NCBI GenBank assembly: GCA_025358295.1
Contig: JANYJY010000022.1
Location: 1 to 64,000 of the forward strand
Direction: 5' to 3'
DNA: 64,000 nucleotides
Source: Gammaproteobacteria bacterium
GTDB taxonomy: Bacteria; Pseudomonadota; Gammaproteobacteria; Steroidobacterales; Steroidobacteraceae
Under the pieces are notes generated by a model. It was not told the DNA's origin. It worked only from the letters and a program-made list of their open reading frames with translations, and did no database searches. Positions 37,703-53,340 of the stretch are shown piece after piece; positions within the stretch are counted from its first letter, which is position 1; the number at the start of each line of letters is the position of its first letter. Made by a program: the position numbers and the translations under genes.

Positions 37703-39703
37703 TTAACTACTGCCACCCAATTCCTTGGCAATGGGTACGAATCCGCGGCCGGCCGCCACATCGAGCGCCGAGGAACCGGCGCTGTTGCGCAGCATCTTGT
37801 TCGCCCCGGCAGCCAGCAACATCCGACAGATGTCGGCGTGCCCGCCTCGACTGGCCGCTATCAGCGCGGTGTCGCCGATGGAGTTCTGCACATTGAGATT
37901 CGCGGAGCGAGCCAGCAATGCTTCAACCACATCGGCACGGCCAGTCGATGCAGCGATGAGCAGCGGCGTGTCGCCGGCGTTGTCGCGTCGGTCAACCATT
38001 GAATCGGCAGCCAGCAGCTGCGCCAGCGCTTCGGCGTGCGCTTGAGCAGCCGCCACGTGCAACGGCGTGAGGCCTCGCGCATCGGCCGCCGCCGGGTTGG
38101 AACCGCCGGCCAACAGGGCCCCGATCGCATCGCGCGACCCGGAGCCGGCGGCATAGAAGAGCGCCGTGCGATGGTCCTGATCTTGTACATCCAGCTTTGC
38201 GTGACGCTCGATCAGAAGCTTGATCAGCGCCGCGTCCCCGCTCGAGCATGCCAGCATCAGGGGCGTGCGTCCTTGCGCATCGGCAGTCTCGATACCGGCG
38301 CCGGCATCGAGCAAACTCCTCGCCGCATCGGAATGCGCTGCGCGCAGTGCTGCGTTCAGCGGCGCCTGCTCGCCGGCCGCGTGCGTGTCGGGCGCCACTC
38401 CGGCACCGAGCAGCGACTTGATGAGGGTGACATCGCCGCGCGACGCGGCCAGCCACAACACACTGTGGCCGCTACGATCAGCCGCGGCCGCATCGGCGCC
38501 CCGCGCCACCAAGAGGGCCACACTCTGCAGCGCCTGCGCATCGGCTGCCAGGTGCAGCAGAGAATCGCCGCGCGGCACCTGTAAGTTGGGATCCGCCCCA
38601 GCCGCCAGAAACTGCCGCACCCCGACCGTGTCGTTACGCGCCACCGCCAGCGCCAGGGGCGGCCAGCCGCGATAGATTTCACCGGGTCGCGCCGGATCGA
38701 ATTTGCCGCTTTGGCGGGCGGGATCCACAGTGACTCGATCGGCGTGGACTCCCAAGGATCGCAGCCGCGCTGCCGCTTCATCGGCGCCTACGACGAGAGC
38801 TGAGTCGAGCGCGTTGTAGCCACGGCTGTCATGCGCCTCGAGCAACGCGCCGGCGCGCTGTAGCGCGGTAACCGCATCGGCACGATTGGCGCGGGCCGCA
38901 TAGAACAGCGCCGTGCGCTGCTGCGAGTCCGACGCTTGCGAATCGGCCCCGTGTCCTAGCAACAGCTCGACCATCCCTGCGTTAGGACGCCCGGCCGCAA
39001 TCATCAAGGCTGTCGTGCCCACTGCATCCGCAGCGCGCACGTCGGCGCCCAAGTCCAACAGCGCGGCGGCGGCCGCGAGCGTGCCGGCGTCGGCTGCATA
39101 GGACAGTGCCCCGCGGCCGAATTCGTCACGCAGCGCCGCGCTCCGCGCCCCGATGCCGCGCAGCTCCGCCGCGTCATCTCTGCGGACACAGTCGATCACC
39201 CATGCCATCAACTCGCCGGGATCCGCGGCGCCGACGCGTTCACGTGCCAGCAGGGGCCTGCCCGAGCGCACCGTTTCAACCCCGCGGTGATAGCCCAATT
39301 GTGCCGACCGCTCCAGCCACTGCCGGACCGCGTCGAATGTTGCACCTGGCTCTTGCGCAAGCTCTGCGGCCAAGACAAAGGCGGCCATTCCCTGACCGCG
39401 TTCCGCAGCTGCTTGTAACAAGACGCGCGCGCGCGCCGGATCGGCGGCGGTGCCGATGCCGTTCAAGTACATGACGCCGAGCAGGTATTGAGCGTCCGCA
39501 TTGCCGGCCTTGTCAGCTGCGCTTAACAGCACGATGGCCTGGTCGAATTGCAATGTCCGCAGCGCCGCGCGGGCCGGCTCCAAGGGATCCACGGGCCGCA
39601 GGGTCTTGCCGGCGGACGCGGCGACCGACGTCGCGGCGATGACGCAGCACAGAGCGGCGTTGGACCAGCGGTCGCGGCAGCGATGAATAAAGAACTGGGT
39701 CAT
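37703..39703 (-). CDS. ankyrin-repeat protein with N-terminal Sel1-like repeats, exported
   Basis: 666 aa from the ATG at 39703 (MTQFFIHRCRDRWSNAALCC); upstream frame overlaps the flavoprotein gene. The N-terminus looks like a signal peptide (CCVIAATSVAASAG). Residues about 60-130 contain Sel1/TPR-like helices (AQYLLGVMYLNGIGTAADPA). From about 180 to the end there are roughly a dozen ankyrin repeats with the G-x-TPLxxAA pattern (GRTPLMLACSSGDAALIKLL, GLTPLHVAAAQAHAEALAQL). Probably a periplasmic scaffold. It lies 19 nt after the ferredoxin-flavoprotein on the same strand, so it likely belongs to the multiheme redox locus, perhaps organising its proteins. Confidence 0.9.
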   Translation of the reverse strand: MTQFFIHRCRDRWSNAALCCVIAATSVAASAGKTLRPVDPLEPARAALRTLQFDQAIVLLSAADKAGNADAQYLLGVMYLNGIGTAADPARARVLLQAAAERGQGMAAFVLAAELAQEPGATFDAVRQWLERSAQLGYHRGVETVRSGRPLLARERVGAADPGELMAWVIDCVRRDDAAELRGIGARSAALRDEFGRGALSYAADAGTLAAAAALLDLGADVRAADAVGTTALMIAAGRPNAGMVELLLGHGADSQASDSQQRTALFYAARANRADAVTALQRAGALLEAHDSRGYNALDSALVVGADEAAARLRSLGVHADRVTVDPARQSGKFDPARPGEIYRGWPPLALAVARNDTVGVRQFLAAGADPNLQVPRGDSLLHLAADAQALQSVALLVARGADAAAADRSGHSVLWLAASRGDVTLIKSLLGAGVAPDTHAAGEQAPLNAALRAAHSDAARSLLDAGAGIETADAQGRTPLMLACSSGDAALIKLLIERHAKLDVQDQDHRTALFYAAGSGSRDAIGALLAGGSNPAAADARGLTPLHVAAAQAHAEALAQLLAADSMVDRRDNAGDTPLLIAASTGRADVVEALLARSANLNVQNSIGDTALIAASRGGHADICRMLLAAGANKMLRNSAGSSALDVAAGRGFVPIAKELGGSS

Positions 39704-39722
39704 GGCGGCGTTCGACGAAGTT

Positions 39723-41045
39723 TCATGCGGTTCCGAACTTGGTCTCGACTTCGATGCCGATCGATTTAAGAAAATCATTGGGTAACACTCCGCCGGCACT
39801 GACGATGACGGCATCGTTTTGCAACTCGATAGCCTTGTCGGAGTGGTGTACCAGCACGAGGTTCGGACGGATTTCCCGAATCTGGGAATTCAATAGAATC
39901 CTGAGCTGCCCCTTGGCGCTTGCCTCGTCGATACGCTGTCGGTTGCGCTGCTTGGCACGCTGGAATGCGTCGCCGCGATAGGACAGGCACACCTTGGTGT
40001 TGCCCAGTTCGGCGATGCTGGCGGCCGCTTCCAGAGCGCTGTCGCCGCCGCCGACCACGATGACCTGCCGGCCCTGGTATTGCTCGGGATCGATCAGCCG
40101 GTAGACGACCTTCGGCAGATCTTCTCCCGGCACGCCCAACTTACGCGGAGTCCCGCGGCGTCCTATGGCCAATAGCACCGCCGCCGCCCGATATTGTTGC
40201 TTGCTGGTGCGCACGTGAAACACGCCGTCTTTTCTTTCCATGCTCTCCATGCGCTCCTGATAGCGGATTTTCAAGCCATTGCCGTTGCAGGCCTGAGTCC
40301 AGAATTTCAGCAATTCCTCCTTCGAGGTATTACGGAATTGCACCCTCCCGACGATCGGTAGGTCTACTGGCGCGGTCATCACCAATTTTCCGCGTGGATA
40401 CTGAAATACCGCGCCGCCCAAGGAATCTTGCTCGACGGTCTGATAGGTCAACCCCAGTTTCGTGGCGGCCAGCGATGCGGCAAGTCCGGCAGGCCCGGCG
40501 CCGATGATCAACACGTCGAGCGCCCCATCGCGCTTCACCGCGGCTTTGGCAATCGACTCCAGCGCCTGCTGCCCCTGAGTCAGCGCATTTTTGATGAGTC
40601 CCATTCCCCCGAGCTCGCCAGCGATGAATACGCCGGGAACATTCGATTCGAAATTCGGACGTAGAACCGGAATATCCAGTCCACGTCTCTCCGTACCGAA
40701 CACCAAGCTGATCGCATCGAAAGGGCACGCGGTTTTGCACGCTCCGTGTCCTATGCAATTGCTCGGACCGATCAGCACCGCCTTGCCCATGATCAATCCC
40801 AACACGTCGTGGTGCGGGGCTTCAGGACAGGCCTTGACGCAAGCACCGCATCCCAGACATTTGCTGGCATCGATCAGCGGATGTAAGGATGCAGGTTCGG
40901 TCATGCCCGCGGCAACGGTGTCTTCGAAAGTCCGCGAGTCGCGCACGTGCACGCGCCGCTGGCGCAGCAGATACACGCCGATGATCGCCGCGAGCGGCAA
41001 CACATAGACACCGAGAGACCAAAAATCGGTGGATGGTGGGTTCAA
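39723..41045 (-). CDS. membrane-anchored ferredoxin-flavoprotein oxidoreductase
   Basis: 440 aa from TTG 41045; this start is needed to include the single N-terminal helix (FWSLGVYVLPLAAIIGVYLL). A two-cluster ferredoxin domain follows: CLGCGACVKACP is a standard [4Fe-4S] half, while CIGHGACKTACP has His where the second Cys is expected. From residue about 150 there is a thioredoxin-reductase-like flavoprotein: FAD motif [17 protein letters not shown] and NAD(P) motif VIVVGGGDSALEAAASIA, with no redox CxxC. It probably shuttles electrons between NAD(P)H and a membrane partner, most simply the predicted di-heme b protein divergently encoded at 42106. Confidence 0.9.
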   Translation of the reverse strand: MNPPSTDFWSLGVYVLPLAAIIGVYLLRQRRVHVRDSRTFEDTVAAGMTEPASLHPLIDASKCLGCGACVKACPEAPHHDVLGLIMGKAVLIGPSNCIGHGACKTACPFDAISLVFGTERRGLDIPVLRPNFESNVPGVFIAGELGGMGLIKNALTQGQQALESIAKAAVKRDGALDVLIIGAGPAGLAASLAATKLGLTYQTVEQDSLGGAVFQYPRGKLVMTAPVDLPIVGRVQFRNTSKEELLKFWTQACNGNGLKIRYQERMESMERKDGVFHVRTSKQQYRAAAVLLAIGRRGTPRKLGVPGEDLPKVVYRLIDPEQYQGRQVIVVGGGDSALEAAASIAELGNTKVCLSYRGDAFQRAKQRNRQRIDEASAKGQLRILLNSQIREIRPNLVLVHHSDKAIELQNDAVIVSAGGVLPNDFLKSIGIEVETKFGTA

Positions 41046-41126
41046 CTTATCGGCAGCTTATCTGTTAGCGAACGTGCGCAGCATTTTGCAGCGACAATGT
41101 GTGAGTCTCATCACTTATTGCAGCTT

Positions 41127-41146
41127 GCGAAAGTGTCGCATTTCGC
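41127..41146. promoter_or_regulatory. short inverted repeat in the divergent redox-locus promoter region
   Basis: GCGAAA (41127-41132) and TTTCGC (41141-41146) with an 8-bp spacer, in the 209-bp gap between the flavoprotein (minus) and CcmI-like (plus) genes. The only dyad I noticed there; a TATACA hexamer at 41175 could be a -10 for the plus-strand gene. Weak evidence. Confidence 0.3.
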
Positions 41147-41254
41147 GCACATTTTATTGATTCATTCGTGGCGCTATACACTCGAGCCATCCCCGACAGA
41201 GGTTGCCGTGCAGCAATCGGTTCGGCCCTGAAATACCGGTAAGTCGGAGTCTTA

Positions 41255-42109
41255 ATGCCGTTCCTTTGGTTTATGGCCGGATCAGTGACGACGCTTGCCG
41301 TTCTCGTCGTGATTTTGCCTTGGTTACGCACGTTTGCGCGCTTCGCAGGCTTGCCCACCTTCTCGTGGCAGGCTTCTGTCGGCAGCGCAGCGCTCGTAAT
41401 TGCGGCTGTGGGATTTGCTACCTACAGCGGCTTGCAGCATCCAGGAGCGGCTCTGTCGAGCGGCCCGGCCGTGGGCGGTGCCTTTGGCGATGCGGCCAAA
41501 TTGTTCGCGAACACCGAAGGCGTGTCCCCAAATACAGTAAACACGGCTGTTAATCCGCCGATGAAAACCGCGGCGGTCTCCATGCAGAGCGCCATTGCAA
41601 ATTTGCAAGCCCGCCTCAGCAAGGGGGGCGGAAGCACCGACGACTGGGAGTTGCTCGCCAAATCGTTCGAGTATTTGTCCCGGCCGGAGGATGCAGCCAG
41701 GGCTCGCGCACACCAACTGCCGGCGTCGGCGTCGGGCGCCGCTGTCACGGCAGCCGCATCCGGTGCTGCCATCGACGGCGAAATTACACTGGCTCCCGGA
41801 CTCAGCGCCAAAACGGCCGCCGGCGAAACTTTGTTCATCGTCGCCAAATCCGTCGACACACCCGGCATTCCGGTGGCGGTTTTGCGGCGCAGTGTGGGCG
41901 ACTGGCCTTTGAAATTCACTCTGGATGATTCGCAGGCCATGATGCCGGGTCGCAATCTCTCGAGCGCCGGCCGCGTGACCATTGAGGCGCGGATTTCGCA
42001 CAACGGCCAGGCACTGCCGGCGGCGGGAGATCTGCAGGGTTCAACCGGCGTGATCAATCCTAATGACCATAAGCCGCTCAAGATACTTATCGATCGAGTC
42101 ATTACGTGA
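41255..42109 (+). CDS. CcmI/CycH-like cytochrome c biogenesis protein
   Basis: 284 aa; GGAG precedes the ATG. Two N-terminal membrane helices (about 1-24 and 37-60) flank a short basic loop, as in CcmI. A brief TPR-like segment (WELLAKSFEYLSRPEDAARA) replaces the usual longer TPR array. The C-terminal about 110 residues match the CcmI periplasmic domain (GETLFIVAKSVDTPGIPVAV, DDSQAMMPGRNLSSAGRVTI, ARISHNGQALPAAGDL). CcmI presents apocytochrome c for heme ligation. A dedicated copy at the head of a 67-heme locus suggests a specialised ligation helper. Its stop overlaps the next start (GTGA). Confidence 0.85.
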   Translation: MPFLWFMAGSVTTLAVLVVILPWLRTFARFAGLPTFSWQASVGSAALVIAAVGFATYSGLQHPGAALSSGPAVGGAFGDAAKLFANTEGVSPNTVNTAVNPPMKTAAVSMQSAIANLQARLSKGGGSTDDWELLAKSFEYLSRPEDAARARAHQLPASASGAAVTAAASGAAIDGEITLAPGLSAKTAAGETLFIVAKSVDTPGIPVAVLRRSVGDWPLKFTLDDSQAMMPGRNLSSAGRVTIEARISHNGQALPAAGDLQGSTGVINPNDHKPLKILIDRVIT

Positions 42110-42990
42110 ACACGGTGGCCGCCAAGCTTGCGGCGACACCCGCACCGAAGATTCCACGCCTCCACTGGCCTTTGATATGGACCGTGACAGTCGCGTGTCT
42201 GATCGCCTGGGGTATGCATGCGCATTTGGAGCGCTACATCACTCCACACAGCGGCCTTGGCTACTGGCTGGGGATCGTCGGCGGCTCTCTGATGCTGCTG
42301 CTGCTGTTGTATTCCGCCCGCAAGCGCTTCTCGTGGTTGAGTTGGATGGGCGGAATCCCGGCGTGGTTCGAGTTTCACATGGTCTTGGGCGTCGTCGGCC
42401 CGGTTCTTGTGCTATTTCACGCGAATTTCAAACTCGGCGCCACCAACAGCAATGTGGCCCTTTTCAGCATGCTGCTGGTCGCCGGCAGCGGCGTGGTCGG
42501 CCGCTACATCTACACCCGCCTGCACGCGCATCTAGAGGGTCACGAAGACACTCTGGAGCAGTTAAAGGCCGTCGGCGACCGGCTGCGGCAGCAATCGACC
42601 TCGATTACATTTCTTCCGGGACTTCTCGATGCCATCGAGCGCGTGGAGCACCGATATATCGACCCTCCCAAGAGCGCCATTGCACGCGCCATGCACTTAG
42701 CCACGGGCGCCGTGCGCATTGCCCTGGCACGCTGGGCCGTGCGCCGGGAAATAGGAATGGCGGTGAAAAAGGCGCTTCAACCTGAATCCGTCGTCATTTC
42801 GCGACATGCACATCGCTTCGGCGCGGTCGCCCGGCAGTACGCGTATCGGCGACTAGATGCCGGCCGGCGCATGAACGAATTTAAAATGTATTCTCAATTG
42901 TTCTCGTTTTGGCACGTATTGCACATACCGCTGTTTTTCATGCTCCTGATTGCAGGCAGCGTTCACATCATCGCGATCAACGTCTATTGA
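42106..42990 (+). CDS. predicted di-heme b transmembrane electron-transfer protein
   Basis: 294 aa (GTG start, 4-nt overlap with the CcmI-like gene). About five membrane helices. One helix carries His91 and His105 (FEFHMVLGVVGPVLVLFHAN) and the last carries His273 and His287 (HIPLFFMLLIAGSVHI). Both pairs are 14 residues apart, the H-x13-H geometry of cytochrome b and ferric-reductase cores that hold two stacked b hemes. A large basic cytoplasmic-type loop (about 140-260) sits between. Inferred role: moving electrons across the inner membrane from the flavoprotein to periplasmic cytochromes. Confidence 0.8.
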   Translation: MNTVAAKLAATPAPKIPRLHWPLIWTVTVACLIAWGMHAHLERYITPHSGLGYWLGIVGGSLMLLLLLYSARKRFSWLSWMGGIPAWFEFHMVLGVVGPVLVLFHANFKLGATNSNVALFSMLLVAGSGVVGRYIYTRLHAHLEGHEDTLEQLKAVGDRLRQQSTSITFLPGLLDAIERVEHRYIDPPKSAIARAMHLATGAVRIALARWAVRREIGMAVKKALQPESVVISRHAHRFGAVARQYAYRRLDAGRRMNEFKMYSQLFSFWHVLHIPLFFMLLIAGSVHIIAINVY

Positions 42991-43062
42991 GCGCCCGCGT
43001 TCGCTTCGACGCTAGGTAAACTCAGTAGTCTTCGGCGCCGAATGTCTGCTATCACAGACGGA

Positions 43063-43109
43063 CTGACGCGCGCGCAAAGCGATCATATAATTTGCTTTGC
43101 ACTGCAAAG
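43063..43109 (+). promoter_or_regulatory. promoter with palindromic operator upstream of the 21-heme cytochrome
   Basis: -35 CTGACG (43063-43068), 17-bp spacer, consensus -10 TATAAT (43086-43091). Immediately downstream is a perfect 15-bp palindrome CTTTGCACTGCAAAG (43095-43109), which would cover the transcription start. The same motif sits at the promoters of 57906 and 58167. This gives the cytochrome genes their own promoter and a leader of about 160 nt. Confidence 0.65.
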
Positions 43110-43159
43110 AGTTGCTTGATAAACGCGCCCCTTGGCGGGCACGGCATAATAAGGATGCG

Positions 43160-43273
43160 ATGGCCAACAACACCATAACTTGGGCCCGTCCACCCGCTCT
43201 GAGCCGCGGTCTCGATGATCGTGAGATCGGCGCAACATTGCCGCTCGACGCAGCGCCATGCGTCGACATCTAG
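43160..43273 (+). CDS. possible 37-aa leader peptide overlapping the cytochrome start
   Basis: ATG 43160 follows AAGGA and the frame (MANNTITWARPPALSRGLDD...) ends in TAG at 43271-43273, 13 nt past the start of the 21-heme cytochrome gene (43258). Translation of this frame could open the cytochrome start by coupling. No homologue is recognised, so it may be chance. Confidence 0.3.
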   Translation: MANNTITWARPPALSRGLDDREIGATLPLDAAPCVDI

Positions 43274-44826
43274 GGGCGATTCTCGCCATGTCTCTCCTCG
43301 CAGCATTGTTAGGCAATTCAGCGAGGCCGGTGCTGGCCGCCAATGTCGAAACTCTTCTCATGCCGGGAAAGGTCGCACAGGCGCATTTGAAGCAGGAAGA
43401 AAGTTGCGCGAACTGCCACGACCGCTCCAATGTCAGGACGCAAACCTCGCTGTGCTTGGACTGTCACAAGCCCATCGCCGTGGACTTGCAGCAGCATCAG
43501 GGTTATCACGGACGCATGCCCAATGCCGGCGTCGGCGAGTGCCGCGCGTGCCATACCGAACACAAGGGCCGCTCGGCAGATATCGTTCGTCTGGATCGTG
43601 CGCTGTTCAATCACCGCCTCACCGACTTTGCTCTCGAGGGAGCACATGCCGAGTTGGGCTGCGAGAGCTGTCACAAGAAGGCCGAACCCTGGGGCAAAGC
43701 CGTCACGAGCTGCGCGGGCTGCCACAAGGCGGACGACGTGCACCACGGCCAGTTCAGCCAAGCATGCGGCGACTGCCATGGCTCTGTGAGTTGGACCGGA
43801 GGCAAGTTCGATCATGACAAGACGAACTTCAAATTGACCGGGGCTCACACGACGGTCACATGCAATGCCTGCCACATCGGCGGGCAATACCGGCAGACGC
43901 CCAAGACTTGCGTCGCATGTCACGCCACCGACGATGAGCATCGTGGTTCTCGCGGCGAGGATTGTGCGAAGTGCCATGTGACCAAGGAGTGGAAGACGGC
44001 CAAGTTCGACCACCTCAAGGAAACCAGCTATGAACTGCTGGGCGTCCACGATCGGATCAACTGCGTGGCGTGTCACCGCAGCGGTAATTACAAGGAGAAG
44101 ATCCCGAAGGACTGCAATGGCTGCCACCAGGCCGACGATTCGCATGCAACCCGTTTTGGGCCGCAGTGCGGCGACTGTCACGACAACGATCATTGGCAAG
44201 TCGCCGACTACGACCATGCGGGAAAACATCACTTTGCGCTGCTTGGCGCGCACGCCAAAATAGATTGCTACGCCTGTCACACGGCTCCCGTGGCATCTCA
44301 GAAGTTGGCCAAAGATTGCGGTGGCTGTCACCGCAGTGAAGATCCTCACAACGCCACGCTCAAGGGCGGCTGCGAATCCTGCCATGGACAGAAGTCCTGG
44401 CGCTCCGATATGGCATTCGATCACGACCTCAGCCATTTTCCGTTATTGGGACTGCATCGAGTCGCCAGCTGTGCGCAGTGTCACGCCACCATGGCCTTCA
44501 ATCAGGCGCCCACGGCGTGCGTCGATTGCCATGCCCCCGATGATGTTCACAAGGGAGGACTCGGCAAGAAATGTGAGAGCTGCCACTCTTCGAACGGCTG
44601 GCCGCTATGGGTTTTCGATCACGCGAAGGAGACTCATTTTGCATTGCTGGGCGCACATGCGAAATTGCAGTGCGAGGACTGCCATCGCGAACCGCCAGGC
44701 TCGGTGAAGACATCACCGCTGTGCGTCAGCTGTCACCGCAAGGATGATCGACATCTCGGCGAGTATGGTGCGCAATGCGGCCGCTGCCATACGGTCAATT
44801 CCTGGAAAGATGCGCGGATCCAATAG
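43258..44826 (+). CDS. 21-heme c-type cytochrome (seven triheme modules)
   Basis: 522 aa. Signal peptide (MRRHLGAILAMSLLAALL, cleavage near VLA-A). I count 21 CxxCH heme-binding motifs, arranged as seven triheme modules. In six of them the order is F-x-H, about 10 residues, GAH, CxxCH, about 10-15 residues, CxxCH-x-x-DD-x-H-x-G, then CxxCH and a Trp; the N-terminal module is less regular. The conserved extra His residues (FDH, GAH, DxH) can serve as distal ligands, giving bis-His low-potential hemes. Expected to be a periplasmic wire-like electron carrier. It is followed 4 nt later by the 46-heme gene. Maturation needs the Ccm system. Confidence 0.95.
   Translation: MRRHLGAILAMSLLAALLGNSARPVLAANVETLLMPGKVAQAHLKQEESCANCHDRSNVRTQTSLCLDCHKPIAVDLQQHQGYHGRMPNAGVGECRACHTEHKGRSADIVRLDRALFNHRLTDFALEGAHAELGCESCHKKAEPWGKAVTSCAGCHKADDVHHGQFSQACGDCHGSVSWTGGKFDHDKTNFKLTGAHTTVTCNACHIGGQYRQTPKTCVACHATDDEHRGSRGEDCAKCHVTKEWKTAKFDHLKETSYELLGVHDRINCVACHRSGNYKEKIPKDCNGCHQADDSHATRFGPQCGDCHDNDHWQVADYDHAGKHHFALLGAHAKIDCYACHTAPVASQKLAKDCGGCHRSEDPHNATLKGGCESCHGQKSWRSDMAFDHDLSHFPLLGLHRVASCAQCHATMAFNQAPTACVDCHAPDDVHKGGLGKKCESCHSSNGWPLWVFDHAKETHFALLGAHAKLQCEDCHREPPGSVKTSPLCVSCHRKDDRHLGEYGAQCGRCHTVNSWKDARIQ
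43606..44805 (+). repeat. six tandem triheme modules, about 67 aa each
   Basis: Within the 21-heme cytochrome, six successive modules (heme motifs 4-6, 7-9, 10-12, 13-15, 16-18, 19-21) share the pattern F[DN]H...F.L.G.H...CxxCH...CxxCH...CxxCH...W. Residue identity between modules is moderate, suggesting old internal duplication rather than recent expansion. Confidence 0.85.
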
Positions 44827-44830
44827 GCCC

Positions 44831-47800
44831 ATGGCCCTCCGGCGCAAATTGTCTTGGATCTCCCGACGCGCATTGGCGCCGGCCGTCGCGGCGTTGCTCG
44901 CCGCGGCGGCGTTGGTTGCCCCGTCGGCGCTGAATGCGGCGGCGGGTACGCAGCCGATTACGGTGCCTTTCGATCATTTGGCGACCGGCTTTGAACTCGA
45001 CGGCGTGCATCGCGACCTGGCCTGCGAATCCTGCCATTTGCACGCGGTCTTCAAAGGGACGCCGAGGAACTGCGGCAGCTGCCACATTACCGGCTCGACT
45101 TTCAATGCGACGCCGAAATCGCTCACGCACATTCAAAGCACCAACAACTGCACCGCCTGCCACGATTCCTCGTCGTTCCGGCCGGACGTGCATTTCGATC
45201 ACTCCGAAGTCATGGGAACCTGCGTCAGCTGCCACAATGGCACGATCGCCCAGGGCGAAGGACCCACCCATCCGGCGACGAGTCAAACCTGCGAGGCCTG
45301 CCACACCGTATTGAGCTGGAATCCGCCCAAGGTGGTGGATCACACGCAGATTCCCCTGGCGGTTGCCGGCTTCTGCATCATCTGTCACAACGGCGTGCAG
45401 GCGTCCGGCAAGAGCGCCAACCACATAGCGACGGCCTTGGAATGCGGCGACTGTCATCTCACGACAAGCTGGCTCGGTGCCGCATTCGATCATACGGGGA
45501 TCACCACGGGCTGCGCGAGCTGCCACAACGGCACGAAAGCCGTCGGCAAACAGGGCAGCCATATGCCCACGACCAATCTGTGCGAGCACTGTCATACCAC
45601 GGGCATCGGGACCAAGACGCCGAGTTGGGTGCCGTCAGGCTTCGAGCACACACAGATGACCGTCACGACCTGCCAGTCCTGCCACAGCGGCACGGTGAAA
45701 ATCTCCACCGGGCTCGTCTCCGGACAGCCCGCCAATCATGTCCCACCGATACCGTCCGTCATCGATTGCGGCATTTGCCATGGCAACACGCCGACGGCGG
45801 AAACATGGACGGTGTTGGCCGCAAGCATACCGACGCTGCATACGGGATTGAACGTCGGGAACTGCGTGCTGTGCCACGCCGGCCAGACTTTCGCCGGCGT
45901 TCCGGCGCCCTACATTCCAATGTCGATTTCGGGCGTGTCACCGACCAAGAAGACGCCGCTCGTGCCCCCGCACATCCCGATTTTGGCAGGCACGGACTGC
46001 AGCGCCTGCCATGGCGCGGCTTATGCCGCCGGCGGTTTCGGCCCGGCAACCGCGATGAATGCCGCCAAGCACGGCTTTGTATCCGGGGCGTGCAACACCT
46101 GTCATGACACCGGCAAGAGTTTCTATGTGGGCGGCGGCACGCCGCTGCAGCTGCGCCCGGCGGACCATCTCACCAGCGCCGATACCCGCATGGCTGCGGG
46201 TGACTGCTCGCTATGCCACGAGACCACGGATTGGGTCAGCAGCACCATGCCGGCAGGGCACATGCCGAATCCGGCCAATCAGACCTGTGCCAAATGCCAC
46301 GCCTCGGCGCCCAGCGACTACACAGCGGCGACGCTCGCACCAAACGCCATTCTGCATACCGGCATCAGCAGCAATTGCGGGCTGTGCCACGGCGACACTG
46401 TAACGGCGCTCACGTGGTTCAAGAATTTCACGCCGAAGGATGCTCTGCTCACGCCCTCGCACATACCCTATCTGGCGGGGACGGACTGCAGCTCATGCCA
46501 CGCCTCGAGTACTTACGCAGCCGGCACCTTCGGGCCGATGAATATGACTCAGGCCAAGCACGCCTTCGTGCCCACGGCCTGCAACACCTGCCACGAAGCA
46601 GGCCTGTCCTTCTATATAGGGTCGGCAAGCCCCCTTCTGCAGGGGCGCCCCGCCGATCACACGACGGGACAAATGGTGGCGCCGAACGACTGCAGCCTTT
46701 GCCACACCACGGCGAACTGGAACAGCACCATGCTGCCGGCGGGCCATATGCCCAATCCGGGCAATGCCGCTTGCACGGTCTGTCACACGAACCCAGCGAA
46801 CAACGCGACGTTGGCGGCCGTTGCCGTGCTGCATACAGGCATCACCGGCAGTTGCGGCACCTGTCATGGCGCGACCACGGCGCTCACGTGGTACAACAAT
46901 TTCACGCCGAAGGACGCGGTGTTGACGCCGTCGCACATCCCATATCTCACCGGCACGGATTGCAGTTCCTGTCATGCGACGACTTACGTGACCGGCGGCT
47001 TCGGACCGGCGACGGCCATGAGCGCGGCCAAGCACGCCTTCGTGCCCACGAGCTGCGACACCTGCCATGACACCGGCAAGAATTTCTATGTGGGCAGCGG
47101 CACGCCCTTGCAATTGCGTCCGCCGACCCACGTGTCGGCGCCCAATCCTCCAAGCCAGGCGGCCGGCGACTGCTCGCTTTGTCACAACACGACTGTCTGG
47201 ACCACGCCCACTACGCTGCCGGACGGCCACATGCCGATTCCAGGCACCCAGGTCTGCACCGTGTGTCATACCGCCGCGGTTGCCGGCAATCCCAATAGCT
47301 ATGCCACCCTGGCGAGCATCCCGATATTGCATACCGGCATCAATACGGGATGCGCCCAATGCCACGGCGGCACGACGCCGCTGACCTTCTACAACAACAA
47401 CGACAATCCGAAAGCAGCGCCGCCGACTCACATCCCATCGTTCACCAACAACGACTGCAGTGCCTGCCATAAAGCGAATTACGTGGCCGGCGGCTTCGGC
47501 CCGATGAATATGACGGCGGCCACGCACACCAATGTGTCGACGCTGACCTGCAAGACCTGCCACGAGTCGGGACTTTCGTTTTACATGGGCGCGGCGAGCC
47601 CGGGCCTGCAGGGCCGTCCGGCCGATCACACCAGCGCCGTCATGGCAGCCCCGAACGATTGCAGCGCCTGCCACACCACGGCGAACTGGAACAGCAACGC
47701 CATGCCGGCCGGTCATATGCCGAACCCGGCAAACACCGCGTGCAATACCTGCCACACGACAGCGCCGGGGAGTTACGCGACGCTGGCGGCTAATTCGGTC

Positions 47801-49294
47801 CTGCACACCGGCATCAGCAGCAACTGCGGGCAATGTCACGGCGGAACCGCCGCGGCGCTCACCTGGTACAACAATTTCACACCGAAAGCGGCCGTGCTCA
47901 CGCCCGCGCATATTCCGTATCTCGCCGGCACCGATTGCAGCGCCTGCCATTCTTCCGCGACCTATGCGGTCGGTACCTTCGGCCCGTCGAATATGACTCA
48001 GGCCAGGCACGCGTACGTCACGACCGCCTGCACCACCTGTCACGAAAAGGGTTTGAGCTTCACCATGGGCGCGGCGAATCCGGCGCTGCAAGGCCGCCCG
48101 GCCGATCACACCTCCGGTCAAATGGTGGCGCCCAACAATTGCAGCCTTTGCCATACGACCGCGAATTGGAACAGCACGGCGCTGCCGGCTGGCCACATGC
48201 CGAATCCCGGCAATCAAACTTGTTCGGTCTGTCACACTGGCGCGCCGACGAATTACACCACGCTGGCTGCGAACGCGACCCTGCACACCGGCATCGGCAG
48301 CGGCTGCATCACCTGCCATGGCGCGCCGTCGGCGACGCCGCCGGTTTTCTACAACAACTTCACGCCCAAGTCGGCGAGACTTTCGCCCGTGCACATCCCG
48401 ACCGGCGCCACGCCCTGCGAGGACTGTCACTCCAAGACCGTCTTTACCTCGTTCAGCGGCGCGGCGATGACGGCGGCGAAGCACAATCTGATGTTTACGT
48501 TCATCGGCAGCACCTGCGACGCCTGTCACAATCGCGTCACGCCGACATTGAGCTTCTACGGCGTCACGAACCTCACTATCCGGCCGACGTCGGATCCCCA
48601 CAACAATGGTAACGCGCTGACCAACGATTGCAGCAGCTGTCATAGTCCGAACAACTGGGGCGGCGGCGGCGCAAGAAGAACCGCCAAGACCCAGAAGACG
48701 AGCCGCAGCACGATTGCCGCAGTCGTCAGCGCACCCGCAGTCTCACGTGCCGCGACCAGCGCTCTGGCAGCCGGCCTCGCCAAGCGAGGAATCGGTGCGG
48801 GCGCGCTTCTGCGGCCCACTCATAGCGGAGTGACCAGCAACTGTTTCAGTTGCCACAATGGCTCGCTGGCCACAGGCAAGGACGCGGCCCATGTCGCAGC
48901 GAACAGCTCTTGCGAGAATTGCCATACGACGATCGCATGGACGCCGGCACGCTTCGATCACCGTGGGCTCACTGCGAACTGCGCCGGCTGCCACAACGGA
49001 GTATCGGCGCCGGGCAAGCCGACACGACATGTGCAAACCGCGCAGGATTGCGGCACTTGTCACGGGACGATTACCTGGGCCGCGGCGAGGTTTAGCCACA
49101 TGGGTGTCGCCGCGGCATGCCAGAGCTGCCACAACTCCATCACGGCGACCGGCAAGCAAGTCCAGCACGTACCGACCACCCTTGATTGCGGCAGCTGCCA
49201 CAACATCCTGAGTTGGACGGTCACAGCGGTACCGCCGCGGCTGCGACCCTTGCTACCGACCAAGCGCGGTGCGGCCACCGGTCCTACCCAGTGA
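44831..49294 (+). CDS. giant 46-heme c-type cytochrome
   Basis: 1487 aa from the ATG at 44831, giving a long signal peptide (basic n-region, SWISRRALAPAVAALLAAAA, cleavage near LNA-A). I count 46 CxxCH motifs. Layout: N-terminal region with 12 hemes, several in a CxxCHNG...GK...H pattern; five tandem pentaheme repeats (hemes 13-37); a transition with hemes 38-40; an Ala/Arg/Lys-rich linker of about 60 residues; and a C-terminal hexaheme part (41-46) that returns to the CxxCHNG...GK pattern. The repeats are rich in Ala/Thr/Asn/Pro and low in charge, like surface proteins. No lipobox, so it may span the periplasm or be exported. It lies 4 nt after the 21-heme gene and 29 nt before the barrel gene. 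Confidence 0.95.
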   Translation: MALRRKLSWISRRALAPAVAALLAAAALVAPSALNAAAGTQPITVPFDHLATGFELDGVHRDLACESCHLHAVFKGTPRNCGSCHITGSTFNATPKSLTHIQSTNNCTACHDSSSFRPDVHFDHSEVMGTCVSCHNGTIAQGEGPTHPATSQTCEACHTVLSWNPPKVVDHTQIPLAVAGFCIICHNGVQASGKSANHIATALECGDCHLTTSWLGAAFDHTGITTGCASCHNGTKAVGKQGSHMPTTNLCEHCHTTGIGTKTPSWVPSGFEHTQMTVTTCQSCHSGTVKISTGLVSGQPANHVPPIPSVIDCGICHGNTPTAETWTVLAASIPTLHTGLNVGNCVLCHAGQTFAGVPAPYIPMSISGVSPTKKTPLVPPHIPILAGTDCSACHGAAYAAGGFGPATAMNAAKHGFVSGACNTCHDTGKSFYVGGGTPLQLRPADHLTSADTRMAAGDCSLCHETTDWVSSTMPAGHMPNPANQTCAKCHASAPSDYTAATLAPNAILHTGISSNCGLCHGDTVTALTWFKNFTPKDALLTPSHIPYLAGTDCSSCHASSTYAAGTFGPMNMTQAKHAFVPTACNTCHEAGLSFYIGSASPLLQGRPADHTTGQMVAPNDCSLCHTTANWNSTMLPAGHMPNPGNAACTVCHTNPANNATLAAVAVLHTGITGSCGTCHGATTALTWYNNFTPKDAVLTPSHIPYLTGTDCSSCHATTYVTGGFGPATAMSAAKHAFVPTSCDTCHDTGKNFYVGSGTPLQLRPPTHVSAPNPPSQAAGDCSLCHNTTVWTTPTTLPDGHMPIPGTQVCTVCHTAAVAGNPNSYATLASIPILHTGINTGCAQCHGGTTPLTFYNNNDNPKAAPPTHIPSFTNNDCSACHKANYVAGGFGPMNMTAATHTNVSTLTCKTCHESGLSFYMGAASPGLQGRPADHTSAVMAAPNDCSACHTTANWNSNAMPAGHMPNPANTACNTCHTTAPGSYATLAANSVLHTGISSNCGQCHGGTAAALTWYNNFTPKAAVLTPAHIPYLAGTDCSACHSSATYAVGTFGPSNMTQARHAYVTTACTTCHEKGLSFTMGAANPALQGRPADHTSGQMVAPNNCSLCHTTANWNSTALPAGHMPNPGNQTCSVCHTGAPTNYTTLAANATLHTGIGSGCITCHGAPSATPPVFYNNFTPKSARLSPVHIPTGATPCEDCHSKTVFTSFSGAAMTAAKHNLMFTFIGSTCDACHNRVTPTLSFYGVTNLTIRPTSDPHNNGNALTNDCSSCHSPNNWGGGGARRTAKTQKTSRSTIAAVVSAPAVSRAATSALAAGLAKRGIGAGALLRPTHSGVTSNCFSCHNGSLATGKDAAHVAANSSCENCHTTIAWTPARFDHRGLTANCAGCHNGVSAPGKPTRHVQTAQDCGTCHGTITWAAARFSHMGVAAACQSCHNSITATGKQVQHVPTTLDCGSCHNILSWTVTAVPPRLRPLLPTKRGAATGPTQ
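45995..48412 (+). repeat. five tandem pentaheme repeats, 158-165 aa each
   Basis: Repeat boundaries at the DC[SN]xCH motifs fall at 45995, 46484, 46958, 47453, 47933 and 48413, giving units of 489, 474, 495, 480 and 480 bp. Each unit reads DCSxCH...GGFGP...KHxFV...CxTCH...GRPADH...DCSLCH...PAGHMPNP...CxxCH...LHTGI...CGxCH...NFTPK...HIPYL. High identity (for example NDCSLCHTTANWNS in units 2 and 5) points to fairly recent duplication. Confidence 0.9.
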
Positions 49295-49323
49295 CGGCGG
49301 GAACGACGCGAACTGGACAGCGG

Positions 49324-51759
49324 ATGCGGCCGTGGCTGACGCATGCCATCGCATTGTTGATCGCGTTGGCCATGCCGGCAATGCGCTCGACCGCCGCGCC
49401 GGCTCCGGAACTGTCGCTGGGGCCGATGGTGCGCCTGATCGACACCCAGGAACTGGACGATCACGCAGATATCTCCATTCAGTTCGCCTGCTCCACGCGT
49501 TACATGTCCAACACACCGGTCAGTCACGGTACCGGCACGACCATTACGCTGCGGCTCGGGCCGGATTGCGGCACTCAGCTGAGTCCGCTTCCGCCGGAAC
49601 TGCCGCTGGTGGGCGGGGGTGGACAACTCGTAACGGGAGCGCGTGTCGATTCGCTGCTGCCCGGACAAATTACAGTGGAGTTAACCTGGTCGCGATCCCT
49701 GGACTTCGTCATGGCGCCCACCGCAGCGGGCCTCGGCTTGCGGGTGCGCCTGCTCAACATCAACCGCCACAAAGGCAGCGTCTTCGTCGCCGAGACCGAG
49801 GCGCCAGGGGGCTATGCGGTCAATCTGGACTCCTCACAATCTCCGATTGCGCACGAGATCGTGGAGGCGGCCGCGGCCGGCCTCCAAACCCAGGCCTATG
49901 TGTCCGAGACGGACATAGACGATGAGCACTGGTTCCGATTGCGGGTGGGGCCATTCACCACCCGCAAGGAGGCTGAACGGGTTCTCACCATCGCGCAAGC
50001 TCACTACCCGCGCGCGTGGCTTGCGGTCAATGACGAACTCACCGACCTCTCCCCCGTCGAACATGCCGGAGTCCAATCGCCGGAGGCGAGCGGGCCGACT
50101 GACCCGCCGCTCCCCGACGTCGAGCGCGCGCAAGTCCTGCGCGCCGCGCGCGCAGCGCTCGGCGCCCGCCAGTATCGCGAGGCCGTCGATCTTTTGAACC
50201 GGCTGCTGCGCCAGCCCGAATTCCCGGCGCGCGCCGAGGCGCAAGAACTGCTGGGTTTGGTGCGGGAACGCGCCGGTCAATTGGCGCAGGCCAAGGCAGA
50301 GTACCAGGAGTATCTGCGCCGCTACCCGGACGGCGCGGCGGCTGTGCGCACACGGGGCCGCCTCCAGGCCCTGGCTGCCGCTTCCCTCGAGCCAAAATCC
50401 ATCGGGGATTCCGGCGCGGCCACCAACAATCGCTGGGCATTGGCCGGCAGTGCGTCAATCAGCTATCAATATGGCAAGGCACAGACATCCTCGGGCAGGA
50501 CGACCACGACGACGAGTTCGGTCAGTTCGGCGCAGGTTTACGGCAATCTGTTGCTTCGCGACCGCGGCAATCGCTACGATTTCACGGCGCGCGTGGATGG
50601 CGGCTACGCACACAATCTGCGCACGGACTTTGGCGGCGGCAGTCAGGATCGCACCACTGCGGCCTACGCCGAACTCAGCGATCGGCTGTTCGGATTGACC
50701 GCCCGAATCGGCCGTCAGTCCCTGGCCAGTCAGGGCGTCATCGGGCTCTTCGACGGCGTGTTCGTCGGCTACCAGGCAAACTCGACGTTCGCCGTCAGCG
50801 CCGCCGCGGGGCTCCCGGCATACTCGAGCTATTCGGCGGTCTCGAGCCAACGTAAATTCGGCACCCTGACTGCGGAGTTCGATCCCTTTCACCAAGCGTG
50901 GGTGTTCGACGCTTATTTTTTCGACGAGACCAATGGCGGCGACACCGAGCGCCGCGCGATCGGCCTACAGACGCGCTATTCCGCGCCGGGACGCACCGCC
51001 GTGATGTTGATCGATTACGACATCGCCTTCCAGCAGCTTAACTCGGCAACCCTGATTGGCAACACGAAGATAGGCCAATACTGGATACTCAGCATCGACG
51101 TGGATCACCGCCGCAGCCCGCTGCTCGAACTCAGCAATGCGCTCATCGGCCAAGGCGCAACTGACCTGCGTGCGCTCGAAACCGGATTTACGCCGTCGCA
51201 AATCAAACAGCTGGCGCTCGACCGCACGTCCACCAGCAATACCGTCGTCGTCTCCGCCAACCGGCCCCTGGGCGAGCGCTGGCAATTCATGGGCGACCTT
51301 TCCGCCATCGAACTCAGCGGCACCCGCGCCACCGGCGGAGTCCCCGACACCGAGTCCACCGGCCTCGATAAGAACGCGTCCATACAGATGGCCGGATCCA
51401 GTTTGCTGCAAGCGGGCGACTTGCACATATTTAGCGCGCGCTTCGACAATTCTCCCACCTTTCGCAGTACCACCCTGTCATGGGACGCACGCTTCCGGCT
51501 GCACGGCGCCTGGCGGCTGGGGCCGCGCCTAAGTGTCGAGAAATTGAACGACTCCATGCTAGGCGGCAAGCAGATGCTGTACCTGCCGCAGTTGCGCGGC
51601 GATTGGACCAGCCGATTCTCCGTATTCGACTTCACGGCCGGCTACCAAGTGCAGAGCCAACAGGCGCTGCAGCAGCAGTCGTTGACCGGTCAGCCTGATG
51701 CTGGCACGGTGCAACAGCGTTCGCTCTACCTCTCAGCTACTTACCGGGAACGTTTTTGA
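49324..51759 (+). CDS. outer-membrane beta-barrel protein with AMIN-like, SPOR and TPR domains
   Basis: 811 aa from the ATG at 49324 (MRPWLTHAIALLIALAMPAM, signal peptide). Residues about 30-150 look like an AMIN-type beta domain (VRLIDTQELDDHADISIQF). About 165-240 is a SPOR fold (TQAYVSETDIDDEHWFRLRV, VGPFTTRKEAERVL), and about 275-355 TPR helices (ALGARQYREAVDLLNRLL, AKAEYQEYLRRYPDGAAA). From about 367 to the end the sequence alternates amphipathic strands and short turns, and it closes with LYLSATYRERF, a C-terminal Phe suited to BAM recognition. Roughly 440 residues allow a large barrel of about 18-22 strands. Next to the cytochromes it could sheath them across the outer membrane; peptidoglycan contact by SPOR is likely. 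Confidence 0.8.
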   Translation: MRPWLTHAIALLIALAMPAMRSTAAPAPELSLGPMVRLIDTQELDDHADISIQFACSTRYMSNTPVSHGTGTTITLRLGPDCGTQLSPLPPELPLVGGGGQLVTGARVDSLLPGQITVELTWSRSLDFVMAPTAAGLGLRVRLLNINRHKGSVFVAETEAPGGYAVNLDSSQSPIAHEIVEAAAAGLQTQAYVSETDIDDEHWFRLRVGPFTTRKEAERVLTIAQAHYPRAWLAVNDELTDLSPVEHAGVQSPEASGPTDPPLPDVERAQVLRAARAALGARQYREAVDLLNRLLRQPEFPARAEAQELLGLVRERAGQLAQAKAEYQEYLRRYPDGAAAVRTRGRLQALAAASLEPKSIGDSGAATNNRWALAGSASISYQYGKAQTSSGRTTTTTSSVSSAQVYGNLLLRDRGNRYDFTARVDGGYAHNLRTDFGGGSQDRTTAAYAELSDRLFGLTARIGRQSLASQGVIGLFDGVFVGYQANSTFAVSAAAGLPAYSSYSAVSSQRKFGTLTAEFDPFHQAWVFDAYFFDETNGGDTERRAIGLQTRYSAPGRTAVMLIDYDIAFQQLNSATLIGNTKIGQYWILSIDVDHRRSPLLELSNALIGQGATDLRALETGFTPSQIKQLALDRTSTSNTVVVSANRPLGERWQFMGDLSAIELSGTRATGGVPDTESTGLDKNASIQMAGSSLLQAGDLHIFSARFDNSPTFRSTTLSWDARFRLHGAWRLGPRLSVEKLNDSMLGGKQMLYLPQLRGDWTSRFSVFDFTAGYQVQSQQALQQQSLTGQPDAGTVQQRSLYLSATYRERF

Positions 51760-51764
51760 GGACC

Positions 51765-52337
51765 ATGAACATTCGCGCAGCCTTGATCCTGTTGCTGGTA
51801 TGGCTTCCCTCTTGTGCAGCCCAGTCACAGGTTGCACCCCGGGAAATATTCGACGAGCAGAGCGGCAGCACGTTGACGGTGGTCAGCAAGCCTCTGGTGT
51901 TCGCGCGCGAACGGTCGGACGTTGCCGCTCACGCGCGCGACTACGCGACAGTGGTTGCGGTCGAAATAGACCGCTCCGGAGACTACCAGCAGTATCTATT
52001 GCTATACCGATGGTCCACGGTTGACCGACGCATGTCGCCGCCGCCGGATCCCGCAGCCGGCGCAATGCGCATGCTCGCCGATGGCCGGCCGATCGATCTC
52101 TTGCCCTTGGAGCGAATGCCGGTCAGTTTGCAGCGTTCGAGCGAATTGCACGTTCCGGATCACGCCGCGGTGGTCACCCGCGCCTACAAAGTTGATCCGT
52201 CCTTGCTGCATTACATTGCCACGAGCGCAACGCTGACCCTGCGCATGCCGCGGGAATCGCTCGATGTCCCGTTCACGCTGTGGGAAGACGGGCGCGACGC
52301 GCTGGTCAAATTCCTGCAGACCGCCGCAGCGCCCTAA
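51765..52337 (+). CDS. putative lipoprotein of unknown function
   Basis: 190 aa from the ATG at 51765, with TGAGGA as ribosome binding site overlapping the barrel gene stop. The N-terminus MNIRAALILLLVWLPSCAAQ has a lipobox-like LPSC. The mature part is beta-rich (STLTVVSKPLVFARERSDVA, YQQYLLLYRWSTVDRR) with no CxxCH or other motif known to me. As the last gene of the cytochrome run it may be an assembly or surface partner of the barrel. Confidence 0.75.
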   Translation: MNIRAALILLLVWLPSCAAQSQVAPREIFDEQSGSTLTVVSKPLVFARERSDVAAHARDYATVVAVEIDRSGDYQQYLLLYRWSTVDRRMSPPPDPAAGAMRMLADGRPIDLLPLERMPVSLQRSSELHVPDHAAVVTRAYKVDPSLLHYIATSATLTLRMPRESLDVPFTLWEDGRDALVKFLQTAAAP

Positions 52338-52371: not shown

Positions 52372-53340
52372 TTATCGGCTGAGCGCAGCTCTACCCTCGA
52401 TCCATTGCCAAGCGATGAGCTGCGGGAGGCTGAACGCCAATTCGCGCATACGTTTGGCGAGCGACAAGGCGATGGCGACGTCGGCGCCAATACCGAGCAA
52501 GTGAGCCACTCCCATCAGGCCGGCCTCTTGAACGCCGAGTCCTGCGGGGACCAAAAAGAACACATGCCTCGCCGCCTGCGCCGAGCTTTCTAATGCAAGC
52601 GCCGCAGGAACGCCCACCGGATGACCGAGCCAGCGCAGAGCCAGCCAGGTTTCCGAGCACCCCACCAGCAGACCGGCGAGTTGCCAGAACAACGCGCGTA
52701 GCAGCCGTCCATGCGCGGCCAGCAGGTCGCGAATCGCCGCATCCAAATGGGCGCCGCGCGAAAGCTCGCTCGCGCCCCGCGAGTTCAGGCCGAACAAATG
52801 CCCCGCAACGCGTTCCAGGCGGCCAAAAACCGCCCCATTTCGCAACAGCGCGAAAAATACGCCGAGCAACAGGCCGCTTGCGGCCAGGCCCAAAACCAAC
52901 CCGCTGGTCAAGCCTACGGCATCCGTGAGGCGCAGCACGCACAGCACCCCAAGCACGGCGAAGATGAATTGCGCGGTCAATGTGACGGTCAGCTCAACGA
53001 TAACGCTCGCCGCAGCAACGGTGCCGTCCACCCGCTGGCGCACCAGCAATCGTATGCCCACGATTTCCCCGCCGAGGCCCGCTGTCGGCAGCAGTCGTCC
53101 GACGGCTTCGCGAATGCAGGCAATGAAGAACAGCACCCCAAGTCGGCTGCGGGCGCGAACCAGTTCCTGCCAGCCACGGGCGTCGAGCAGCAACGGCAGC
53201 GCATGCAAGGGGACGAGCAGGAGCAGGGCCCACCCTCCCCGCAGCAGCAAATCCAAGATTTCCTGGACGCCCTGATGCGCAATGAGCACGATCAGAACGC
53301 CGAGACCGATGACGAATCCGATGCGCACAGCGAATCTCAC
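52372..53340 (-). CDS. hpnL: hopanoid-associated membrane protein HpnL (flippase-like)
   Basis: 322 aa from GTG 53340, which overlaps the hpnK stop as GTGA; the longer frame to 53388 adds only basic, non-homologous residues. Seven or so membrane helices of the UPF0104/AglD-like family, with REAVGRLLPTAGLGGEIVGIRLL and the closing VPAGLGVQEAGLMGVAHLLG, the typical PxGLGxxE motif. In hopanoid clusters this is HpnL, proposed to move lipids between leaflets. Convergent with the lipoprotein gene at 52337. Confidence 0.88.
   Translation of the reverse strand: MRFAVRIGFVIGLGVLIVLIAHQGVQEILDLLLRGGWALLLLVPLHALPLLLDARGWQELVRARSRLGVLFFIACIREAVGRLLPTAGLGGEIVGIRLLVRQRVDGTVAAASVIVELTVTLTAQFIFAVLGVLCVLRLTDAVGLTSGLVLGLAASGLLLGVFFALLRNGAVFGRLERVAGHLFGLNSRGASELSRGAHLDAAIRDLLAAHGRLLRALFWQLAGLLVGCSETWLALRWLGHPVGVPAALALESSAQAARHVFFLVPAGLGVQEAGLMGVAHLLGIGADVAIALSLAKRMRELAFSLPQLIAWQWIEGRAALSR

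Follow-up and report, generated by a model that had tools for sequence, protein, structure and literature searches.

Here we describe a gene cluster in a 64,000-nucleotide stretch of DNA (the window, meaning the whole stretch) from contig JANYJY010000022.1 of a Steroidobacteraceae gammaproteobacterium, in which adjacent genes for multiheme cytochromes, a barrel and other redox proteins form, as judged from sequence, a PCC3 porin–cytochrome cluster, a known kind of locus rather than a new conduit. The locus probably carries electrons across the whole envelope, and comparison with related loci indicates that the usual PCC3 unit is larger than the four genes published for it. New here are two partners not found in the PCC3 texts (a flavoprotein and an ankyrin/Sel1-repeat protein), a short form of the cluster without the flavoprotein, and a testable mechanism, in which a split NAD(P)H port resembling NADPH oxidase would feed electrons into the heme wire; we consider the chances of such a port to be evenly balanced.

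The genes named in the first-pass annotation are present as open frames, with the 21 and 46 CXXCH motifs it had assigned to the two cytochromes:

37703..39814, minus strand (likely start about 39703): Sel1/ankyrin-repeat protein with signal peptide (Pfam Ank/Sel1)
39723..41045, minus strand: flavoprotein with N-terminal membrane anchor, two iron–sulfur (Fe-S) motifs, and thioredoxin-reductase/FNR-type domains for FAD and NAD(P)H
41255..42109, plus strand: CcmI/CycH-type Ig-domain protein with N-terminal hydrophobic segments (PF23892, E 2.1e-31)
42106..42990, plus strand: inner-membrane protein (IMP), a putative di-heme b protein (from motifs and hydropathy)
43258..44826, plus strand: multiheme cytochrome, presumed periplasmic, 21 CXXCH, 522 residues
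44744..49294, plus strand (start 44744, 44810 or 44831): large multiheme cytochrome, presumed extracellular, 46 CXXCH, 1516-residue frame
about 49324..51759, plus strand: predicted outer-membrane barrel, with N-terminal beta domain, SPOR, TPR, then about 22 predicted strands
51765..52337, plus strand: small putative outer-membrane lipoprotein

Pfam assignments were Fer4 and Pyr_redox for the flavoprotein, cytochrome c7/c3 families for both cytochromes, and SPOR and TPR for the barrel protein. The window is part of a 167-kb contig in a 4.0-Mb genome (74 contigs, 97.5 percent complete).

According to the available text of the 2017 description (He et al., PMC5566968), PCC3 occurs in Alpha-, Beta- and Gammaproteobacteria and consists of a porin, two cytochromes, one extracellular (median 34 hemes) and one periplasmic (median 21), and an IMP roughly 300 residues long; of its five helices the fourth bears SGXXG, and the third and fifth each WX3HX13H. 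The window shares with this unit a predicted barrel gene, a larger, variable cytochrome, a 21-heme cytochrome and an IMP with SGXXG and two WX3HX13H motifs, as well as homology to a published bearer. That bearer, Bradyrhizobium sp. STM 3843, is listed in the same text (PMC5566968) and corresponds to our locus L110, where the order is that of the window (ankyrin match, flavoprotein, IMP, 18-heme periplasmic cytochrome, start of the large cytochrome) and identity is 40 percent for the IMP, 44 percent for the periplasmic cytochrome and 52 percent for the flavoprotein. We assign the locus to PCC3 because of these IMP motifs and this homology. The gene set supports the appearance of a complete trans-envelope conduit, as first annotated, while the accompanying claim of a new combination is not supported, given the match to PCC3 in its median of 21 hemes, its variable larger cytochrome and its IMP motifs.

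Four genes make up PCC3 as published, to which the loci studied here add the flavoprotein, the ankyrin/Sel1 protein, a CcmI-like protein and the lipoprotein. The first two are not in the published unit and accompany almost every locus whose surface cytochrome is long. Flavoprotein, pyridine nucleotide and ankyrin are all absent from the texts of PMC5566968, PMC10734462, PMC12442390, PMC8788666 and PMC12016527 (text only; figures or supplements of He et al. may show these genes), and among the matches listed in literature searches none links a flavoprotein or an ankyrin protein to PCC3.

The same gene order was found again in relatives and in named genomes, which speaks against chance and agrees with the earlier expectation that these genes are conserved together. 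A scan of named genomes gave 245 stretches with an IMP relative, and the locus counts below refer to the best 80 of the 245, selected by IMP and limited for each gene to loci with enough flank (3, 4.5 or 6 kb upstream; 3, 6 or 9.5 kb downstream); flavoprotein counts exclude the Sideroxydans lithotrophicus ES-1 and Leptothrix loci. The flavoprotein gene, divergent from the conduit genes, is present in all 58 loci that extend 4.5 kb or more upstream; of the 54 that extend 6 kb or more, 50 have an ankyrin/Sel1 match. The periplasmic cytochrome was found in 63/64 loci with at least 3 kb downstream, the large cytochrome in 50/51 with 6 kb downstream, and the barrel in 41/43 with at least 9.5 kb downstream; one of the two barrel misses (L075) ends inside the large cytochrome, and the overlapping L040 has the barrel, while the other (L085) encodes an IMP homologue with no 21-heme, large-cytochrome or barrel match within 10 kb downstream. 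The lipoprotein (30/43) and the CcmI-like gene (detected in 39/64 loci with at least 3 kb upstream) are less constant. Six loci (L095, L097, L099, L116, L122, L130) show a rearranged PCC3, with barrel and large cytochrome on the strand opposite to the IMP and 21-heme genes.

Whole genomes gave a similar picture. An order set of 147 genomes, with cut-offs of E below 1e-80 for the IMP and up to 1e-60 for the flavoprotein, contained 30 with the IMP, 29 with the flavoprotein and 28 with both, so that the flavoprotein occurred in 28/30 IMP genomes vs 1/117 others; eight genomes with weaker IMP matches, among them G039 with a fragment at a contig end, are excluded from the 30. The corresponding numbers for a class set of 274 genomes, where IMP matches counted up to E 1e-25, are 34, 36 and 33, that is, 33/34 IMP genomes vs 3/240 others. 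These searches scored part of the first-look candidates (per genome, at most 16 and 11 for the order set and 8 and 6 for the class set), which leaves absences uncertain. Exceptions are G142 and G150, without a flavoprotein match; G078, with a flavoprotein near a contig end; G364 in the class set, with a flavoprotein fragment beside the IMP, below threshold; and G272, G313 and G351, with the flavoprotein alone. The pair is kept in G209, G386 and G412 though the two genes lie about 5–11 kb apart. That copy numbers of the two always track each other was rejected, since they are equal in G207, G210 and G275 but not in G115 and G121 (two strong IMPs, one flavoprotein) or G133 (one IMP and two flavoprotein matches, one of them partial). 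In G208 (C1:2217460-2219028) the flavoprotein homologue is in two pieces with one internal TGA, which may reflect a broken gene or a mistake in sequencing. In loci with a long surface cytochrome, PCC3 has the flavoprotein as a near-constant partner.

An IMP match, weak ones included, was found in 23 of 60 relatives, the wider stretches of which hold two kinds of cluster: PCC3 and one with a decaheme cytochrome. In the latter (L045, L046, L048-L051) a longer flavoprotein neighbours both a decaheme cytochrome and an IMP in 6/6 loci examined, this IMP showing the motifs seen in PCC3, and the PCC3-type barrel found no match in these six loci. Both Fe-S motifs of these flavoproteins are all-cysteine. 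L045 (5958-19762) shows cNMP-binding domains in the flavoprotein, an FHA domain in the decaheme cytochrome and an HbpS-like gene in between; five of the six loci also encode a 4-heme protein and a 10-heme protein of 1233-1296 residues, the latter with LVIVD repeats in L045. This independent pairing of flavoprotein and IMP supports the joint working of both.

The anatomy of the two proteins is consistent with such a partnership. All 18 flavoprotein homologues start with a single hydrophobic helix and have 3 to 8 K/R in the 15 residues after it, and because these positive charges follow the helix, the body of the protein should lie on the cytoplasmic side. Then come two Fe-S motifs, CxxCxxCxxxCP and CxxHxxCxxxCP, of which the second has a histidine (H100) invariant in 18/18, and a C-terminal part that matches the structures of YpdA, thioredoxin reductase and FNR in profile searches; a preference for NADPH, from conserved arginines, is only a reading. 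The IMP of the window carries W87xxxH91x13H105 on transmembrane segment 3, S128GxxG132 on segment 4 and W269xxxH273x13H287 on segment 5, motifs that, with their four histidines, are invariant in 15/15 homologues. By a simple hydropathy rule the window protein and 12 of the 15 have five hydrophobic segments, and the rest four or six. Positive charge prevails in loops 2-3 and 4-5 (means of 4.3 and 23.8 K/R vs 0.07 and 12.7 D/E), a pattern that places H91/H273 towards the cytoplasm and H105/H287 towards the periplasm and makes a cytoplasmic loop of about 130 residues a possible dock. No Pfam or NCBIfam family matched the IMP above cut-off: the 15 homologues gave only weak matches, those of the window protein all below curated cut-offs.

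The two cytochromes, both without CX3CH, CX4CH or CXXCK motifs, differ in how much their length varies. Of the 73 uncut homologues of the periplasmic cytochrome, 68 have 21 CXXCH, four have 18 and one has 22; the 18-heme forms lack a three-heme block in the alignment, and Gallionellaceae periplasmic PCC3 cytochromes are given 21, 24 and 27 hemes in the available text of PMC10734462. Because of these steps of three the protein seems to be built of triheme modules, its length constrained as expected for a periplasm-spanning part. The large cytochrome has 15 to 73 CXXCH (median 41) in the 49 uncut frames of L055-L134, and its middle repeats vary. At its N-terminus, the window and 17/18 others share a CXXCH spacing of 16-26-24 (L127 has 16-23-24). 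In the window protein, which begins with a signal-peptide-like sequence and has no lipobox, a heme-free stretch lies between CXXCH 40 and 41 (71 residues between motif starts), followed by a regular hexaheme end; a heme-free stretch before the terminal block recurs in some other large cytochromes (up to 217 residues in L127) and is absent where spacing is a uniform 23-24. The 46-heme cytochrome had been placed in the periplasm in the first-pass annotation; by analogy with published PCC3 it is more likely a surface, extracellular wire.

From these parts a path for electrons can be proposed. NAD(P)H would reduce the FAD of the membrane-anchored flavoprotein and, through it, the two Fe-S clusters; from these, electrons would pass through the two b hemes of the IMP, first that facing the cytoplasm (H91/H273) and then that facing the periplasm (H105/H287), enter the periplasm-spanning 21-heme wire, cross the approximately 22-stranded barrel and reach the surface cytochrome, docked by an N-terminal pentaheme block, to continue along the remainder of the 46-heme wire. 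Such a port, split over two proteins and resembling NADPH oxidase or ferric reductase, would make the quinone pool or CymA/NapC dispensable. The CcmI-like protein may help load the 67 hemes, and SPOR/TPR and the ankyrin protein may anchor the wire in the cell wall. Support for the port comes from the flavoprotein in 58/58 loci, the co-occurrence in genomes, the pair in the second kind of cluster, the charge topology and the matches to YpdA, thioredoxin reductase and FNR, and also from the fall of both PCC3 clusters of Sideroxydans ES-1 (Slit_0867-0870 and Slit_1446-1449) with Fe(II), as given in the available text of PMC8788666.

Several observations weigh against this port. Genetic linkage is no proof of electron transfer, and the Fisher p values for co-occurrence (1.2e-26 in the order set, 5.6e-38 in the class set) ignore the relatedness of the genomes. 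Moreover, four PCC3 loci have no flavoprotein match. Two of them, L135 and L136 (in G142 and G150), keep the ankyrin gene; the other two, L142 and L143 (in G121 and G115), are second copies with neither a flavoprotein nor an ankyrin match nearby, in genomes that own a flavoprotein elsewhere. All four keep the IMP, 21-heme cytochrome, barrel and lipoprotein, and their surface cytochromes have 9, 5, 5 and 5 CXXCH, respectively, the 5-heme ones being the N-terminal block (spacing 16-26-24-23) with no further hemes. A 9-heme form in L047 (G039) fits the pattern, with no flavoprotein match at threshold and its upstream sequence cut. The long wire and the flavoprotein thus go together. Since the smallest surface cytochromes consist of the pentaheme block alone, this block is probably the irreducible part that meets the barrel and the 21-heme wire. 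The existence of complete loci without the flavoprotein also means that the core can run on another electron partner, perhaps quinol, and that a quinone link is possible for all PCC3, which slightly lowers the odds of the NAD(P)H port.

The short form bears on two other explanations as well. If the flavoprotein and IMP were a maturation or repair port, reducing heme iron or cysteines during attachment of the 67 c-hemes beside the CcmI-like protein and outside the wire, then the very large heme load, the CcmI-like neighbour, the thioredoxin-reductase-like domain and the absence of the flavoprotein where the surface cytochrome is very short would all fit. However, the invariant cysteines of the aligned flavoproteins are those of the Fe-S motifs only, with no invariant CxxC redox pair among them, and the CcmI-like gene is found in 39/64 loci vs 58/58 for the flavoprotein, so that we think this explanation improbable. 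Still less probable, in our view, is a heme capacitor that stores electrons or dumps them in the envelope for detoxification, with no extracellular partner. The very high heme number and the freely varying length of the large cytochrome (15 to 73 CXXCH) could be read in this way, and later literature treats PCC3 as predicted (PMC10734462, PMC12442390, PMC8788666, PMC12016527, PMC13386937), the available parts of these sources and of PMC5566968 reporting no demonstrated function; but the barrel gene accompanies the cytochromes in 41/43 loci, and a 5-heme surface cytochrome holds little charge.

The direction of flow is the weakest step. Electron transfer from NAD(P)H to the outside is downhill and aided by the membrane potential, and the reverse through such a port needs energy input; from these potentials we infer that outward flow is preferred. 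The published model (He et al., available text of PMC5566968) is instead an inward conduit, which would take electrons from Fe(II), a mineral or a cathode through the large cytochrome, barrel, 21-heme wire and IMP to the quinone pool. On such a view the flavoprotein would be an accessory, serving for instance redox sensing or reverse electron transfer. The loci that lack the flavoprotein favour this model, as does the occurrence of PCC3 in iron oxidizers (available texts of PMC5566968, PMC10734462 and PMC12442390). So does the host genome, where genes for the RuBisCO large subunit, CbbX, FBPase and CbbR lie together (L141 614-6409, contig C47): the host seems capable of CO2 fixation, and inward flow is a possible alternative. 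The same genome also contains two genes for heme-copper oxidases. Strong RuBisCO matches, on our reading form I, occur in 7/30 IMP genomes of the order set vs 8/117 others (p=0.015; four genomes with only weaker matches near E 1e-70 are left out), an excess that fits electron uptake; yet 23 of the 30 IMP genomes have no strong match. Published expression data, as far as the available texts give them, point both ways. Against the inward model, both ES-1 clusters are down-regulated with Fe(II) (PMC8788666), and a proteome table (PMC12016527) gives 0 in each of its eight columns for Slit_1448, which is the extracellular subunit of one cluster. In CL21 both PCC3 copies are expressed above the mean, and the only significant change, a rise of the copy-2 IMP when cells can oxidize iron, runs counter to an outward role (PMC12442390). 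The inward model leaves the near-constant NAD(P)H flavoprotein unexplained, and we hold it to be possible if rather doubtful.

At somewhat less than an even chance, the outward reading may hold in its full form: long-wire PCC3 would be a quinone-independent NAD(P)H outlet, a redox-balancing reductase rather than an iron oxidase, in which a membrane-anchored FAD/Fe-S enzyme, whose second Fe-S motif includes a histidine, and a di-heme b protein connect directly to the 21 hemes of a periplasm-spanning cable and, at the surface, to a wire with as many as 70 hemes or more, and the short form with its pentaheme tip would be a different, perhaps quinone-linked device on the same core. PCC3 is widespread (IMP in 34/274 class genomes), and its role is left undecided by expression data. 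What makes that role directly testable is the near-constant NAD(P)H flavoprotein, which may reveal the direction of the electrons, together with its absence from short-wire forms. Should the port exist, cytosolic electrons could leave the cell with neither quinones nor CymA-type proteins involved.

SPOR and TPR domains had been noted in the barrel; they hold for the window, and SPOR is inconstant among relatives (16/22 barrels). Likewise, the putative lipoprotein has its lipobox cysteine in the window and in 14/19 aligned homologues in all; its predicted fold is beta-rich, and structure comparison of that fold gave no trustworthy match. The ankyrin gene anticipated as a scaffold is present, though mostly outside the interval first assigned to the conduit; by a simple hydrophobicity threshold 49/54 of its homologues of 480-800 residues have a signal-peptide-like N-terminus, and we presume the protein to be a periplasmic scaffold and frequent partner. 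The CcmI-like protein is presumed to be an apocytochrome chaperone. The hopanoid-associated genes HpnL and HpnK adjoin the conduit (window 52372-54209).

Among known systems, PCC4 is similar in having a porin, an IMP with the same motif pattern, and Fe-S and other redox genes nearby, and different in its cytochromes, which carry 4, 5 and 10 hemes and are none of them extracellular, according to the available text of PMC5566968. MtrCAB/MtoAB likewise combine a periplasmic wire, a barrel and an optional surface cytochrome, but theirs are decahemes, with an MtrB/PioB barrel and a CymA/NapC-type quinol link. The first-pass distinction from Mtr holds up here: none of 22 barrels, the window's included, matched MtrB_PioB (PF11854), nor did anything in the host genome (control genomes gave no positive above cut-off for this family), and NapC/CymA (PF03264, Cytochrom_NNT) had 0 matches in the 97.5 percent complete host genome, with a positive E. 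coli control.

In NADPH oxidase and ferric reductase, in turn, HX13H pairs hold two stacked b hemes, which receive electrons from cytoplasmic flavin and NAD(P)H. A ferric reductase domain was not among the Pfam families found for the 15 IMP homologues up to E 1, so that histidine spacing alone is shared. The HX13H comparison with these enzymes was drawn by He et al. (PMC5566968, available text), and the cytoplasmic flavin/NAD(P)H protein predicted here would extend the likeness; the difference is that in PCC3 the arrangement would be split over two genes, with Fe-S motifs between flavin and heme.

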